A stretch of DNA of 20,933 bases from a virus. Under the pieces are notes generated by a model. It saw only the letters and a list, made by a program, of their open reading frames with translations, was not told the DNA's origin and did not search any database. The stretch lies in the IMG/VR virus record IMGVR_UViG_3300048580_000027, positions 1 to 20,933 of that record; one strand, written 5' to 3'. Positions 2,775 through 17,252 of the stretch are shown here, one piece after another. The stretch's first letter is position 1. The number at the start of each line of letters is the position of its first letter. The position numbers were made by a program, and so were the translations under genes.

Positions 2775-3691
2775 GTGCTACACTAGGCACGATGATCGAT
2801 GAGGTTATGATCAACCTCGCTGGGTACACTATCAACCAAGATCGCAGCACCTACCTGACTGCTGCCGTTACAAGCCTCACCTCGCCTTCTTCCGACCCAA
2901 CCATCCTCAGCCTCCACTCTACCGACAACGTCGGAAAGGGAATTATTGAGATCGGAACCGAGTTGATGTGGGTAGACTCGTTTGACCGTGTGGCGAACAC
3001 GGCAACGATTGCGCCATTTGGTAGGGGGTACCTTGGCACCAGTGCAACAACTCACGCTGTTGATGCTCGCGTTACCGTTTCTCCGACTTTCCCAAAGTCC
3101 ACAATCCAAAAGGCTATCAATGATACTATTGGTGCTATGGGTGGGTCCATCAGCGCTGTGAAGCAGACCACATTTACCTGGAACGCAGCGGTCAACACTT
3201 ATGGCTTCAATGGACTTGGAATCGAAAACATCCTCCGTATGATGTGGCAAGACATAGGTCCGTCCGAAGAGTGGATCAACATCCGCCGATGGGACTTTGA
3301 CCCACAGGCAGATACCACAACGTGGGGAGCCGATGCTCAGACTGTTACGATTTATGACTACATTACTGCTGGTCGTACTGTCAAGGTGATGTACGCCACA
3401 GAGCCTAGCACGATGTCTAGCACCTCAGATGTATTTACAACAACCACGGGCTTGCCAGCCTCCTGTCGAGATGTAGTCACCATTGGTGCAGCCTATCGAC
3501 TGATCTCCTACCTTGACCCTGCCCGGGTCTCTCAGACCAGCCCACAGGCTGATGAGATTGACACCAAGCGTCCATTCGGTTCATCCGCAAACGCTACGCG
3601 TCAGCTTTACGCATTGTATACGCAGCGCCTAAACGAAGAGGCAAAGCGTCAACAAAACCTCTATCCCCCACGCGTTCACTATACTCGATAG
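2771..3691 (+). CDS. Head-tail adaptor (connector) candidate
   Basis: This gene encodes 306 residues, with AAGGAG ten bases before the ATG. Residues about 26-112 form a beta-rich module with a recognisable IIEIGTELMWV segment and a GRGYLGTSATTHAVDARV segment, which I recall in virion proteins of actinobacterial phages. The rest alternates helical and beta stretches and ends with an Arg/Gln-rich helix (ALYTQRLNEEAKRQQNLYPP), typical of connector-ring adaptors. Its position after the capsid and before the fibres fits a protein completing the portal vertex. The exact family cannot be settled without a profile search. Confidence 0.6.
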   Translation: MSATLGTMIDEVMINLAGYTINQDRSTYLTAAVTSLTSPSSDPTILSLHSTDNVGKGIIEIGTELMWVDSFDRVANTATIAPFGRGYLGTSATTHAVDARVTVSPTFPKSTIQKAINDTIGAMGGSISAVKQTTFTWNAAVNTYGFNGLGIENILRMMWQDIGPSEEWINIRRWDFDPQADTTTWGADAQTVTIYDYITAGRTVKVMYATEPSTMSSTSDVFTTTTGLPASCRDVVTIGAAYRLISYLDPARVSQTSPQADEIDTKRPFGSSANATRQLYALYTQRLNEEAKRQQNLYPPRVHYTR

Positions 3692-3699
3692 GAACCTGA

Positions 3700-5757
3700 A
3701 TGACAACACGCCAATACTCATCCCGCTCTCAGCAGTCGACGCTGACTGGCACAGTTACTGCTGGTGCTTCGTCGATTACTGTTGTCTCTGGCACAGCCCT
3801 CCTTGGTGGTGTTACCATCCCAGCAGGGCGTACCTTCACTTTGGTCATTGACCCTGATACAGCCCTCGAGGAGATTGTTGATGCTACTGCGGTCTCTACA
3901 AACACTTTCACGATCACGCGTGCTATCGATGGTTCCTCGGCGCAGTCTCACTCGGCTGGTGCAGTTGTTCGCCATATGGCTATCGGTAGAGATTATCGTG
4001 ATGCTAACCTTCACGCAGAAGCTGATGCCTCTTACAATGATGGCAGTGGTAATGCTCACACAATGCACGGCATTGGTGCTGGAGAAGGCGTTGTCGTCGG
4101 TACTCTCAAGACGCAAACTCTAACTAACAAGACTCTTACTGCTCCTACAATCTCTGACCCAGTATTTACTGGTACGCCTACGGCTCCATCCTCAATCGTC
4201 TTCGAGGGTACCAATGCTGACCCATTTGAGACTACCCTTACGGTGGCTGAGCCAACTCAGGACAACACCATCACCTTGCCAGATGTAACTGGTACGGTGA
4301 CAATCAACTCTGCTACCCAGACCCTGACCAACAAGACCCTGACAAGCCCTGTTATCTCTGGCACACCGGTCATCACCGGTTTGTCCTCAGCAGGTATGGT
4401 CTCATCTTCGGCTGCTCCAAAGGACTATGTAGATTCTATCCTTGGCTCCGCTACGGCTGCTTCTACCTCTGCAGCTGCTGCTAATACCTCAGCGATTGCT
4501 GCTAGCACCAGCGCAGCCAGTGCCTCTGCTAGCGCCTCTGCTGCCTCTACAAGTGCTGCTGCAGCCAATACAAGTGCTATTGCTGCTACAACATCTGTCG
4601 CTGCAGCCAACACCTCTGCTATCGCAGCCAGCACTTCCGCAGCGTCTGCTCTAGTTAGTGCTACCTCTGCTAGTGCCTCAATGGCTGCAGTCGCAGCAAA
4701 TGCTGCTTCGGCTACCACATCTGCTGCTGCCGCTAATACATCTGCCATAGCAGCCTCGACTTCTGCAGCAAGTGCATCTGCTTCCGCTGCTGCTGCTAAC
4801 ACGTCTGCTATCGCTGCGTCTACCGCTGTGGCCAATGTTGCTGCTGCATCGACCAGTGCTGCTGCTGCGAATACCAGCGCAGTCAATGCTTCTACCTCGG
4901 CAGCAAGTGCATCGGTATCGGCTGCTGCAGCCTCTACCTCTGCTGCCGGTGCTTCGGTTAGCGCAAGTTCTGCTACCGCAGCAGTAGCCTCTATCGAGGC
5001 GTTCTCGATTGCTGCATCTACATCTGCTGCTAGCGCAGCTGCCTCAGCATCTGCTGCAAGTACCAGTTCCGCTAGTGCAAACACTTCGGCTGCTAACGCC
5101 AACACTTCGGCTGTGGCTGCTAGCACTTCTGCTGCTAACGCTGCTGCATCCTACGACTCATTTGATGACCGATACCTCGGAGCAAAGTCAACTCCCCCAT
5201 TAGTAGACAACGACGGCAATCCGCTTCTTACGGGTGCTCTGTACTGGAACACGGTAGATAATCAGATGTACGTCTGGTCAGGTTCTGCCTGGGGTGGTAT
5301 CTCATCTACTGCTCAAATCTTCCGATACAAGTATACCGCTGCTGGAGGAGAAACCTCTGAGTCAGGTCCAGACGACAATGGTCTGACCCTTAGCTACATT
5401 GTTGGCAAGGAGCAGGTCTACCTCAATGGTGTTCTATTGGTGCGCGGTACTGATTATGTGGCTACCAATGGAACCTCTATCGCATCTCTTAGCCCAGCAT
5501 TGGCTGCTAGCGACATCCTTGAGATTATCACCTTTACAGCATTTGACCTGACCACAGCACTCGATATTGACTTGCTAGAGGCTAAGGGTGACCTTATCTC
5601 AGCTAGCACTGCTGGTACTCCAGCACGTCTAGCACTTGGAACAAACGGGTACTTCCTCAGCGTTGATATCTCTACGGCAACAGGATTGGCTTGGGCAGAA
5701 GTGCCTGAACCAGATTTAGACTCAGTTGAAATCAAGTCCATTATGGGCGTCTACTAA
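3700..5757 (+). CDS. Tail fibre protein with long Ala/Ser/Thr heptad repeat
   Basis: This gene encodes 685 residues. The N-terminal part (about 1-110) has the beta-rich attachment module seen in many phage fibres. It is followed by two copies of a TLTNKTLT motif (about residues 137-144 and 207-214), common in aquatic phage fibres. Residues about 248-486 are an uninterrupted low-complexity stretch of units such as NTSAIAA and STSAASA with a seven-residue period, typical of phage tail fibre repeats that form a trimeric shaft. After the shaft come FDDRYLGAKS, a small beta domain with ALYWNTVDNQMYVWSGSAW, and a C-terminal domain. It most likely reaches for the host receptor. Confidence 0.85.
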   Translation: MTTRQYSSRSQQSTLTGTVTAGASSITVVSGTALLGGVTIPAGRTFTLVIDPDTALEEIVDATAVSTNTFTITRAIDGSSAQSHSAGAVVRHMAIGRDYRDANLHAEADASYNDGSGNAHTMHGIGAGEGVVVGTLKTQTLTNKTLTAPTISDPVFTGTPTAPSSIVFEGTNADPFETTLTVAEPTQDNTITLPDVTGTVTINSATQTLTNKTLTSPVISGTPVITGLSSAGMVSSSAAPKDYVDSILGSATAASTSAAAANTSAIAASTSAASASASASAASTSAAAANTSAIAATTSVAAANTSAIAASTSAASALVSATSASASMAAVAANAASATTSAAAANTSAIAASTSAASASASAAAANTSAIAASTAVANVAAASTSAAAANTSAVNASTSAASASVSAAAASTSAAGASVSASSATAAVASIEAFSIAASTSAASAAASASAASTSSASANTSAANANTSAVAASTSAANAAASYDSFDDRYLGAKSTPPLVDNDGNPLLTGALYWNTVDNQMYVWSGSAWGGISSTAQIFRYKYTAAGGETSESGPDDNGLTLSYIVGKEQVYLNGVLLVRGTDYVATNGTSIASLSPALAASDILEIITFTAFDLTTALDIDLLEAKGDLISASTAGTPARLALGTNGYFLSVDISTATGLAWAEVPEPDLDSVEIKSIMGVY

Positions 5758-13904: not shown

Positions 13905-13937
13905 CTTTCGTCGTTTCTTGGGGTCAGTTATCTGGCT

Positions 13938-13948
13938 ATAACTTGCGA
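13938..13948 (+). repeat. Direct repeat ATAACTTGCGA, copy 1
   Basis: This 11-bp sequence occurs again, identical, at 14040-14050 on the same strand. The two copies flank the TA-rich tract. The TTGCGA part could serve as a -35 element, with TATAAT at 13968-13973 (19-base spacer) or TATATA at 13966-13971 (17-base spacer). It could alternatively be a binding site for a replication or regulatory protein. Confidence 0.6.
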
Positions 13949-13950
13949 AC

Positions 13951-14043
13951 CTATATATATAAATATATATAATAGGACCCCAAAGGGGTCCTTTATATAA
14001 TATATAATTATATATATAATATATATATATATATAAATAATAA
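13951..14043. other. TA-rich low-complexity intergenic tract
   Basis: Apart from the embedded GC hairpin, this stretch is almost wholly A and T, with long alternating (TA)n runs, in a genome whose genes are of balanced base composition. It carries no credible reading frame. It lies exactly at the border between late and replication genes and is flanked by an 11-bp direct repeat. Easily melted DNA here fits a replication origin or a strong promoter region; neither is proven. It accounts for most of the only intergenic gap over 200 bases. Confidence 0.7.
13974..13992. terminator. Perfect hairpin AGGACCCC-AAA-GGGGTCCT
   Basis: This is an 8-bp perfect GC-rich stem with a 3-base loop, followed by TTATATAATATATAA. 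A-T pairs in the flanks could lengthen the stem by about seven pairs past a single bulged T. Being symmetrical and AT-flanked on both sides, it could stop transcription from either direction or extrude as a cruciform. It is the second strong hairpin after the late operon. Confidence 0.65.
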
Positions 14044-14050
14044 CTTGCGA
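14040..14050 (+). repeat. Direct repeat ATAACTTGCGA, copy 2
   Basis: Identical to 13938-13948, 102 bases apart and in the same orientation. Here the TTGCGA half is placed as a possible -35 element for the replication operon. Confidence 0.6.
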
Positions 14051-14080
14051 GTAAATTACAGGTGTGTCATAGTTCAGCTA
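14045..14080 (+). promoter_or_regulatory. Possible promoter for a leaderless replication transcript
   Basis: TTGCGA (14045-14050) and CATAGT (14068-14073) are spaced by 17 bases and partly match -35 and -10 consensus. The first base of the gene's ATG (14080) lies seven bases past the -10, where transcription would begin. No Shine-Dalgarno sequence precedes this ATG, unlike most genes here, which fits leaderless translation, common in Actinobacteria. The -10 match is only 4 of 6. Confidence 0.35.
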
Positions 14081-14271
14081 TGGCTATTGACATATCAGGA
14101 TACAGACTACCAGAGCATATCTCATACTCTGCTCTGACCACATACATTGACTGCGGTTATATGTACTATCTCGGACGGCTGATGGAGTTCCCTGAGGAAT
14201 CTTCTGTCTGGTCGTTCGGTGGCTCCGCATTCCACCAAGCAACCGAGGAGTACGACCGTGCAACCTGCTGA
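14080..14271 (+). CDS. Cas4/RecB-like nuclease, N-terminal fragment (frame broken)
   Basis: This piece encodes 63 residues from ATG 14080 to TGA 14271; an in-frame GTG at 14062 is an alternative start. HISYSALTTYIDCGYMYYL and FGGSAFHQATEEYDRA form the usual N-terminus of Cas4/AddB-like PD-(D/E)XK exonucleases. Cys24 is a candidate for the first ligand of a 4Fe-4S cluster, and GSAFH contains the conserved histidine. The frame ends at TGA just where the same protein continues in the +1 frame (next entry). Alone it lacks catalytic residues. The full enzyme would process DNA ends during phage recombination or replication. Confidence 0.7.
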   Translation: MAIDISGYRLPEHISYSALTTYIDCGYMYYLGRLMEFPEESSVWSFGGSAFHQATEEYDRATC

Positions 14272-14887
14272 TCAAATACTTATCGAAGCAACCAAACTCT
14301 TCAGCAAAGAGTGGGCTGACCTGACTGCTGGCGTTGACCTGAGCAAGGCTAGAGTCGGCGGTCGTGCTACCAAAGAAAACCCTAACAAAGAAGATGCCAC
14401 CTTCTGGGCTCGCAAGGGACCTGAGTGGGTCAAGGGTTACATCGAGTGGCGTCAGAACAATCCTGACTGGAAGATTTGGATGAACGGCGAAGTCCCTGCT
14501 ATCGAGTTGGGTCTCGTCCCTGAGTTTGCTGGCGTGCCAGTCAAGATGGTTATCGACCGGGTGTTCGAGGTGAATGGGGAGTTGGTCGTGGTTGACCTCA
14601 AGACTTCACAGAGCACACCGTCCAGTTCTCTGCAACTCGGGTTCTACCGGGCAGGGTTGAAACAGGTGCTTGGCATTGATGTCAAGTGGGGCGCATACTG
14701 GATGGCACGTCAGTCTGGAACTACATCGCTGATCGATCTGACTCATTACGATGACGACAAGATCGAATACCTTGTGGCTGGCTTCGACAAAGCACGCAAG
14801 GCTGGAGTTTTCTTACCTAACCTAAACAACTGCAATAGATGTGGATTGACAGAGTTCTGCCAGTTCACGACGAAAGGAAAGCAATGA
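14219..14887 (+). CDS. Cas4/RecB-like nuclease, catalytic C-terminal fragment
   Basis: The frame is open from about 14219 (a GTG) to TGA 14887, but homology-like sequence begins only near 14270 (DQILIEATKLFSKEW), right where the upstream fragment stops. VKMVIDRVFEV and LVVVDLKTSQ contain the Asp and D-x-K of the PD-(D/E)XK core (codons at 14555, 14594 and 14600). LQLGFYRAGL gives the QxxxY motif. The C-terminal CNRCGLTEFC supplies three cysteines for an Fe-S cluster whose fourth ligand is in the other fragment. The two pieces are therefore one gene interrupted by a +1 frame change. The GTG start is not likely to be used biologically. Confidence 0.75.
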   Translation: MAPHSTKQPRSTTVQPADQILIEATKLFSKEWADLTAGVDLSKARVGGRATKENPNKEDATFWARKGPEWVKGYIEWRQNNPDWKIWMNGEVPAIELGLVPEFAGVPVKMVIDRVFEVNGELVVVDLKTSQSTPSSSLQLGFYRAGLKQVLGIDVKWGAYWMARQSGTTSLIDLTHYDDDKIEYLVAGFDKARKAGVFLPNLNNCNRCGLTEFCQFTTKGKQ

Positions 14888-15285: not shown

Positions 15286-16068
15286 ATGCGAACACTTGTC
15301 CGCTCAGTCGGGCGTGCAAGTATAGGTGGGGAGCCTCTTCCGTCCTGCTTCAAAGCTTTCGAGTCGAATAAGATTATCCTTAGACGCTCAGAAGTTTCGA
15401 TGTTCGCTGCTGCGCCTGGGGTGGGTAAGTCCACCCTGGCGCTAGCCTTAGCACTCAAGATGAGAGTTCCCACGCTGTACATCAGCGCCGATACTAACGC
15501 ACATACAATGGCTATGCGATTAGCCTCAATGATTTCGGGTAAATCACAGGGTGATGTTGAGAATCTACTCACCACCGATGTTGGCTGGACGAAGGCTACC
15601 CTTGCTAGATCGAGCCACATTGTGTGGTCATTCGAGTCAGCACCAAGCCTTCAAGATATTGATGAAGAAGTCCAAGCATTCGAGGAACTATGGGGTACAC
15701 CACCGGTTCTGATTGTAGTGGATAACTTGATGGATGTTGCCACAGATGGTGGCGAAGAGTTCGCATCTATGCGTGCGATTATGAAGGAGTTGAAGTATCT
15801 TGCTCGTGCTACGAATGCTGCAATTCTTGTGCTACATCACACTAGTGAGGCTGTTCCGGGTACCCCTTGTCAACCGCGTAGTGCCATCCAGGGTAAGGTT
15901 GCTCAGCTACCTGCACTTATATGCACACTGGGTGTTGTTGGAACGAGTATGGGAGTCGCACCTGTCAAGAATCGCTACGGAAGAGCCGATGCTAATGGGA
16001 CTCTGATGACTTGGATCTCGTTCAACCCTGAGTATATGTTCGTCGAGGACATCCCGGAGAACGTATGA
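15286..16068 (+). CDS. RecA/DnaB-like ATPase, probable replicative helicase or loader
   Basis: This gene encodes 260 residues, with AAGGAG before the ATG. Walker A is APGVGKST (43-50) and Walker B is VLIVVDNLMD (141-150). LVLHHTSE (182-188) matches the sensor region of RepA/DnaB-type hexameric helicase ATPases. The protein is shorter than DnaB and lacks its N-terminal primase-binding domain, so it is either a RepA-like helicase or a RecA-like recombinase domain. Its place between nuclease, resolvase and primase genes supports a job at the replication fork. The next gene starts within its stop codon (ATGA). Confidence 0.78.
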   Translation: MRTLVRSVGRASIGGEPLPSCFKAFESNKIILRRSEVSMFAAAPGVGKSTLALALALKMRVPTLYISADTNAHTMAMRLASMISGKSQGDVENLLTTDVGWTKATLARSSHIVWSFESAPSLQDIDEEVQAFEELWGTPPVLIVVDNLMDVATDGGEEFASMRAIMKELKYLARATNAAILVLHHTSEAVPGTPCQPRSAIQGKVAQLPALICTLGVVGTSMGVAPVKNRYGRADANGTLMTWISFNPEYMFVEDIPENV

Positions 16069-16421
16069 GTGCCGCCAACAAGCGCAAGGGCGCACAGTTC
16101 GAGACTGATGTACTCAAGTGGCTACGCCAACAAGAGACTGTCCGCTCTGCTGAACGCTTGTCTAAGGCAGGAGCAAAGGACGAAGGTGACATAGTTGTTC
16201 AGGATATGGGTACGCTGAACTATATCCTTGAGTTGAAGAACCGCCAGAAACTAGATCTACCTGTGTTTTGGGAAGAGGCACAGGTTGAGGCAAAGAACTA
16301 TGCGAAGGCAAGGGGTATTGGGGAAGTACCTCCTGCCTTCGTTATAGTCAAGCGCCGTGGATTAGGAATCGGAAAGTCGTGGGTTATACAGGATTTGGAA
16401 CAATGGGTAAAAGGAATTTAG
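16065..16421 (+). CDS. Holliday-junction-resolvase-like PD-(D/E)XK nuclease
   Basis: This gene encodes 118 residues. KRKGAQFETDVLKWL carries the conserved Glu (Glu13). RLSKAGAKDEGDIVV supplies the Asp (Asp42), and YILELKNRQKLDL gives E-x-K (Glu56, Lys58). FWEEAQVEA follows as the usual helix with conserved Gln. This order fits the archaeal Hjc-like family of small structure-specific endonucleases used by phages to cut branched DNA before packaging or during recombination. It overlaps the ATPase stop by four bases and the primase start by 19 bases. Confidence 0.77.
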   Translation: MSAANKRKGAQFETDVLKWLRQQETVRSAERLSKAGAKDEGDIVVQDMGTLNYILELKNRQKLDLPVFWEEAQVEAKNYAKARGIGEVPPAFVIVKRRGLGIGKSWVIQDLEQWVKGI

Positions 16422-16786
16422 ACAATGACCTACCGAATATCGGAGACGTCCTCACATACTACGGAGCAAAGCTTCGACGCACTTACGGGCAGACAAACCT
16501 CAAGTGTCCATTCCACTCAGATACACATCAAAGTGGAACTGCCAACCTTGACACCAACGTCTTTATCTGCTTTGCCTGCGGAGTTCAGGGAAACAGTCTA
16601 CAGATTATTGCAGGACAGGAAGGAATAGATATCCGTGAAGCAAAGAGATTCGCAGAAAGAATTACTGGGACAAGCTTCGAAGAAGTACAATCAAAACATC
16701 TATCAGGCAGAAGATTACCTCAGAAGCAGGGGTATAACAATGGAAGTAGCACGTCTGGCGCGATTAGGCGTAGTCGTGGAGCCTGA
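16403..16786 (+). CDS. DNA primase, CHC2 zinc-finger part (frame broken)
   Basis: I chose ATG 16403, preceded by AGGA nine bases upstream; a GTG at 16379 is possible. The frame encodes 127 residues. LKCPFHSD (Cys35, His38) and FICFACGVQG (Cys56, Cys59) form the CHC2-type zinc ribbon of bacterial and phage primases, which recognises single-stranded template. REAKRFAERITG (about 79-90) is the helix after the ribbon. From about residue 97 the sequence loses family character (SGRRLPQKQGYNNGSS), while the adjacent +1 frame picks up primase-like sequence, so the true product probably changes frame near 16680-16710. Confidence 0.75.
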   Translation: MGKRNLDNDLPNIGDVLTYYGAKLRRTYGQTNLKCPFHSDTHQSGTANLDTNVFICFACGVQGNSLQIIAGQEGIDIREAKRFAERITGTSFEEVQSKHLSGRRLPQKQGYNNGSSTSGAIRRSRGA

Positions 16787-17252
16787 GGTTGGTCACGAAA
16801 TTTACCAAGGAAGGTTGAGTATTCCGTATGTTACTAAGTCTGGTGTTGTTGATCTGCGCTTTCGTAGTCTCAATCCTGCGGTGGAACCAAAGTATATGGG
16901 GCTCACGGGAGCTGATACTAAGATGTACAATGTTCTTGACGTGGAGCGGGCTGGGGATTTCATTGCTATCTGTGAGGGAGAACTGGACACACTTACTCTT
17001 AGTGCCTGCGTGGGCATTCCTTGCATCGGTGTTCCTGGTGCGAACTCTTGGAAGAAACATTATACCCGGCTTCTTGCTGACTTTGAGCGAGTATATGTCT
17101 TCGCAGACGGAGACCAGCCCGGAAAAGAATTCGCAACCTCCCTCTCCAGAGAACTCCCAGTCACCATTATAAACTTTCCAGACGGCGAGGATGTCAACTC
17201 CTACTACATCAAGTATGGAGCGGATGCCATTAGAGAGAAGGCGGGGCTATGA
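16635..17252 (+). CDS. DNA primase, TOPRIM part (frame broken)
   Basis: The frame is open from GTG 16635; family-like sequence begins near YNQNIYQAEDYLRSRGI (about residues 18-34). The TOPRIM catalytic features are visible: AICEGELDTL with Glu114 and VYVFADGDQPGK with Asp158-x-Asp160. Upstream, GRLSIPYVTKSG and DLRFRSLN are typical of primase catalytic cores. Together with the CHC2 part in the other frame this makes one primase of about 280 residues that synthesises RNA primers. It is either expressed by a +1 frameshift, made as two proteins with internal initiation at GTG 16635 or ATG 16740, or broken by an indel. Confidence 0.75.
   Translation: MKQRDSQKELLGQASKKYNQNIYQAEDYLRSRGITMEVARLARLGVVVEPEVGHEIYQGRLSIPYVTKSGVVDLRFRSLNPAVEPKYMGLTGADTKMYNVLDVERAGDFIAICEGELDTLTLSACVGIPCIGVPGANSWKKHYTRLLADFERVYVFADGDQPGKEFATSLSRELPVTIINFPDGEDVNSYYIKYGADAIREKAGL

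Follow-up and report, generated by a model that had tools for sequence, protein, structure and literature searches.

The primase of this virus is very probably made as two polypeptides. In the window, by which we mean the whole 20,933-base virus record analysed here, we predict a DnaG-type primase whose zinc-binding and catalytic subunits would each be translated from a start codon of their own. Translation of the zinc-binding subunit would begin at ATG 16403 and end at that gene's stop codon at 16786; the catalytic TOPRIM subunit would be initiated independently at GTG 16635, a codon that lies inside the zinc gene but is read in the +1 frame. The point of division would correspond to the linker that joins the zinc and polymerase domains in ordinary DnaG. 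The overlap would have two coding roles: one frame would specify a disordered basic tail on the zinc protein, the other the opening helices of the catalytic protein. At the level of sequence, we show conservation of the arrangement, retention of the internal start codon, constraint on both frames and a conserved form in which the two genes do not overlap. What appears to be a broken frame can thus be read as real biology, carried by overlapping genes.

The reading frame of the zinc protein (primase subunit 1, CHC2-type, 127 amino acids) is open from 16379 to 16786 on the plus strand, as are the TOPRIM, resolvase, helicase and exonuclease genes given here, with ATG 16403 as its likely start. 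Domain searches matched it to PF01807 Zn_ribbon_DnaG (E 2e-10) and phrog_360 (E 2e-21). The TOPRIM frame (16635–17252; primase subunit 2, a DnaG-type RNA polymerase core of 205 amino acids) has its own GTG start and matched PF13155 Toprim_2 and the DNA primase family phrog_849 (E 1.5e-46). A likely ribosome-binding site, AGGAAGG at 16617–16623, precedes the GTG, the two together spanning 16617–16637, and an in-frame TAG at 16626–16628 closes the TOPRIM frame upstream. The frames differ by +1 and share 152 nt (16635–16786) in which synonymous variability is reduced in both; open reading frames and domain searches agreed on this relation, which an earlier note had read as one primase gene broken by a frame change without a stop at the junction. 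The junction indeed contains no stop. The same note placed the switch of family-like sequence at about 16680–16710. We saw it near 16645–16690: about residue 90 (about 16672) is where the folded part of the zinc protein ends, and residue 5 (16647) is the start of the TOPRIM fold.

The zinc gene overlaps the 3' end of the preceding gene by 19 nt. That gene encodes a member of the RusA-like Holliday junction resolvase family (16065–16421; phrog_244, E 1e-20) and is itself preceded by a DnaB-like replicative helicase (15286–16068; phrog_243, E 3e-73), the probable partner of the phage primase. The split primase pairs of actinobacteriophages have DnaB-like helicase and resolvase genes close by, as does the window, and the helicase neighbourhood matches that of annotated Streptomyces and Propionibacterium phages. 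The nearest relatives in the phage collection were two uncultured Caudovirales records with about 72% DNA identity. Elsewhere in the window, a long low-complexity Ala/Ser-rich repeat region (4400–5130) lies within ORF 3700–5757, which probably encodes a tail-fibre-like protein.

Structure prediction agreed with the division into two proteins. The AlphaFold model of the TOPRIM protein had a mean pLDDT of 92.6, with a confident helix at residues 5–19, and its best Foldseek matches were DnaG catalytic cores (E 7e-12), including E. coli DnaG cores and the Aquifex primase. The TOPRIM protein by itself was therefore modelled as a DnaG-like catalytic core. Its EGE and DxD-type motifs, which hold the catalytic acidic residues (E114-G115-E116, D118 and D160), are invariant in A1 and A3. 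In the zinc protein, the ligands of the CPFH ... C..C motif (C35, H38, C56 and C59) are invariant in 35 sequences; residues from about 8 to 90 fold, with pLDDT of about 90 at residues 10–80 and below 55 in the tail. According to the model, residues 91–127 form a disordered basic tail that ends in IRRSRGA and coincides with the overlap.

We examined the conservation of the overlap in 82 fetched close relatives: the two Caudovirales records plus 80 loci from IMG/VR. Every one of the 82 carries the +1 overlap, and their zinc stop lies at, or a few codons from, 16784–16786. With identical copies removed, 72 unique junctions remained, and their 650-nt alignment contained no gaps. Stop codons counted near 16406–16412 were an artefact of a scan that began in the variable zinc N-terminus and do not represent gene breaks. 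A wider sample, assembled by sequence search and not exhaustive, comprised 235 non-duplicate loci, including phages of Mycobacterium, Streptomyces, Gordonia, Rhodococcus and Propionibacterium. The +1 overlap was present in 197 of these and the genes were separate in the other 38; not one of the 235 had a primase in a single fused frame. A scan of genome contigs with one protein recovered one relative. The +1 overlap that marks the split primase pairs of actinobacteriophages is one of about 150–190 nt, and the 152 nt of the window fall within this range.

These comparisons dispose of the suggestion in the earlier note that an assembly problem lay behind the split. A sequencing or assembly indel inside one intact primase gene might seem to account for two neighbouring genes split in the same direction, yet the identical arrangement recurs across independent assemblies and isolate genomes, the 72 unique junctions contain no indels, and a search of sister phages for the same split found it repeatedly without finding an uninterrupted frame. 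We regard such an error as exceedingly improbable. Equally improbable is a true frameshift mutation that would have left a pseudogene or a decaying primase: although the domains of one enzyme do sit in two frames, both frames are under purifying selection, and they are conserved down to protein identities of about 29–50% in phages that belong to several genera of actinobacteria.

Evidence that both frames are used came from the pattern of variation within the 72 junctions. Across the overlap, variability by codon position passes from that of the zinc frame to that of the TOPRIM frame. At fourfold sites of the TOPRIM frame, variability was 0.30 inside the overlap versus 0.53 after it (rank test, p = 5e-4), and at those of the zinc frame 0.10 inside versus 0.51 before it (p = 2e-7). 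The zinc frame was open to 16783 in 70 of the 72 junctions and ended three codons early in the remaining two, whereas it stayed open that far in only 1.7% of trials in which TOPRIM codons were shuffled synonymously. The third frame was open in none (0/72). Since the sequences share ancestry, all these numbers show constraint and do not represent independent trials. Judged from these sequences, the overlap exceeds chance and both frames are used.

The start of the TOPRIM gene is retained with compensation. The codon at 16635 is GTG in 43 junctions, ATG in 18 and GAG in 11, and each of the 11 with GAG has an ATG at 16638; in other words, every junction that loses the first start through an AGA codon in the zinc frame has the second ATG to replace it (11/11). 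Where the zinc frame uses a CGN arginine codon at this site, it is CGT in every case (41/41), which creates the GTG, and on the sequence evidence the zinc frame itself does not require CGT there. Even in distant phages, only several codons separate this start from the beginning of the conserved TOPRIM N-terminus, S.QK..L..A...Y. The ribosome-binding site is weak in part of the window's lineage, being reduced to AAGG in 41 of 72 junctions. Deliberate splitting into two proteins, with the second started at GTG 16635, had been one option in the earlier note, and it gained support from this compensated retention of the start codon, from the constraint on both frames and from relatives in which the genes are separate.

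Those relatives form the second line of comparison. In 38 of the 235 loci the zinc and TOPRIM genes are separated by a spacer of 13, 14 or 15 nt, which yields each of the frame relations 0, 1 and 2; nearly all have AAGGAGG in the spacer, and the TOPRIM gene starts with TTG. They include the Streptomyces phages phiELB20 and Spernnie together with metagenomic relatives. A midpoint-rooted tree grouped the separated loci in a single clade (support 0.99) that branches from within the overlapping relatives, and the sequences therefore indicate that the separated arrangement is the derived state. The zinc tail was kept after separation, ending in NYVPAWRRR in an overlapping sister (L264) and in GYVPAWKRK in the separated clade; hence the tail looks like a selected protein feature rather than a by-product of the overlap. 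A sequence-duplication remnant was considered as the origin of the separated genes and was not convincing. The clade offers a natural experiment in which two overlapping genes were parted and both protein ends kept, useful for studying both the mutual constraint of overlapping genes and the zinc and polymerase domains as separate primase subunits.

The more serious alternative is programmed +1 ribosomal frameshifting within 16635–16783, which would yield a fused zinc–TOPRIM primase and, from ribosomes that do not shift, the zinc protein as a shorter product. Sites of +1 frameshifting of the prfB type carry a Shine-Dalgarno-like site just upstream. Such a site is present here too, both frames are open through the conserved overlap, and in some mycobacteriophages the second frame has no standard start codon. 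Against this, inspection of the overlap consensus by eye showed no stop in the zinc frame and no slippery or otherwise shift-prone motif; within the window's lineage all 72 junctions retain a TOPRIM start, with compensation; and the catalytic part folds alone in the AlphaFold model. Nor is the frame relation fixed, and the occurrence of all three relations in the separated clade means that frameshifting cannot join the two genes there. Programmed +1 shifting, which the earlier note had proposed as a control of replication enzymes, is thus unneeded and poorly supported in the window's lineage, and we consider it very unlikely, even if a minor fusion product made by frameshifting may accompany the separate proteins. 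Apart from a gene table, no published account of frameshifting or splitting in this primase was found in the literature searched, nor any paper there that weighs overlapping genes against a frameshift.

About ten loci of the mycobacteriophage type require another mode of starting, because no ATG, GTG or TTG stands near the conserved beginning of their catalytic frame. They are mostly isolate mycobacteriophages and have ATC or ATT (in ACT ATC or GTT ATT) at good spacing after a strong, GAGGAGG-like ribosome-binding site, suggesting a rare AUC or AUU start codon in some of them. Loci lacking ATG, GTG and TTG at the TOPRIM beginning include L132, L135, L136, L142, L143, L158, L165, L172 (near 2501) and L094 (near 1495). 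It is conceivable, if improbable, that the internal ribosome-binding site has two jobs, setting the start of the catalytic subunit and, in several GAGGAGGTGAACTATC mycobacteriophages, promoting either an AUC/AUU start or a +1-shifted fusion; split and fused forms of the primase would then coexist in the phages without ATG, GTG or TTG. Annotation of the primase pair in general calls for caution, as gene callers often shorten or miss one half of the split primase. In public records, the annotated TOPRIM start is apparently too late in L085, L270 and L271, and the overlapping zinc ORF is missing from L092, L095, L096, L097 and L269.

A second replication gene, 2.5 kb or less away, had been described as broken in the same direction. 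This exonuclease does consist of two ORFs, an N-terminal piece of the PD-(D/E)XK type (14080–14271; phrog_1870) and a catalytic piece with a probable GTG start (14258–14887; phrog_1870, E 4e-39) that overlap by 14 nt. The shared direction is a coincidence, however, since the frame relation between the exonuclease halves varies among relatives (0, 1 or 2, with short overlaps in +1 or +2). The gene is split in every relative covering both parts, the halves having their own starts and being joined by stop–start overlaps or parted by a spacer, and an Rfam search gave no match to an intron. The sequences make this look like natural splitting with independent starts. In a subgroup of relatives, L010 (~1871–2090), L016 (~3404–3611), L027 and L032, the halves have between them a small ORF, about 65 codons long, that encodes MISIVNEEGG...MQWETYN.IMR.RY. 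The intergenic DNA just upstream of the exonuclease in the window (13930–14060) is very rich in AT and contains the inverted repeat GGACCCC...GGGGTCC; it is a possible terminator, promoter or replication region.

How might a primase in two pieces work? In DnaG, the zinc domain of one molecule can serve the polymerase domain of a second one in trans (discussed in PMC6783573), which makes separate primase subunits mechanistically plausible. We infer that the subunits of the two-polypeptide primase would likewise work in trans, at the lagging strand and next to the phage DnaB-like helicase, where the zinc subunit would choose the template site, perhaps tethering itself by its tail. Like the window, bacterial DnaG and T7 gp4 combine a CHC2 zinc domain with a TOPRIM RNA polymerase domain, and the core structure matches, but both have the two domains in one polypeptide. 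The phage TOPRIM core, at about 205 amino acids, is shorter at its C-terminal end than the DnaG core of about 310, and a helicase-binding C-terminal domain was not found in the phage primase pair.

Zinc ribbon and TOPRIM also occur as separate proteins in jumbo phages, which encode a free-standing primase zinc ribbon alongside DnaG; these belong to other phage groups, and the passage describing them mentions no overlapping genes (PMC7824862). PhiELB20 and Spernnie encode the same two proteins in the same order as the window, and differ from it in that a strong ribosome-binding site lies in a short spacer between the genes. In conclusion, the split pair is in itself already known, as many actinophage records label each half "DNA primase"; the parts of interest are the evidence for dual coding and the apparent AUC/AUU starts in some mycobacteriophages. 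Such paired genes include gp63/gp62 of Mycobacterium phage Blue7, 58/57 of Streptomyces phage Immanuel3, 67/66 of Gordonia phage Soups, 49/48 of Rhodococcus phage UhSalsa and gp31/gp30 of Propionibacterium phage SKKY, and for phages of P. acnes a gp32/gp31 pair was listed with overlapping coordinates in 2011 (PMC3094311). The actinobacteriophage pairs are like that of the window in domains, order and +1 overlap, and differ from it only by sequence divergence (TOPRIM proteins 29–43% identical) and, slightly, in overlap length and start codon.
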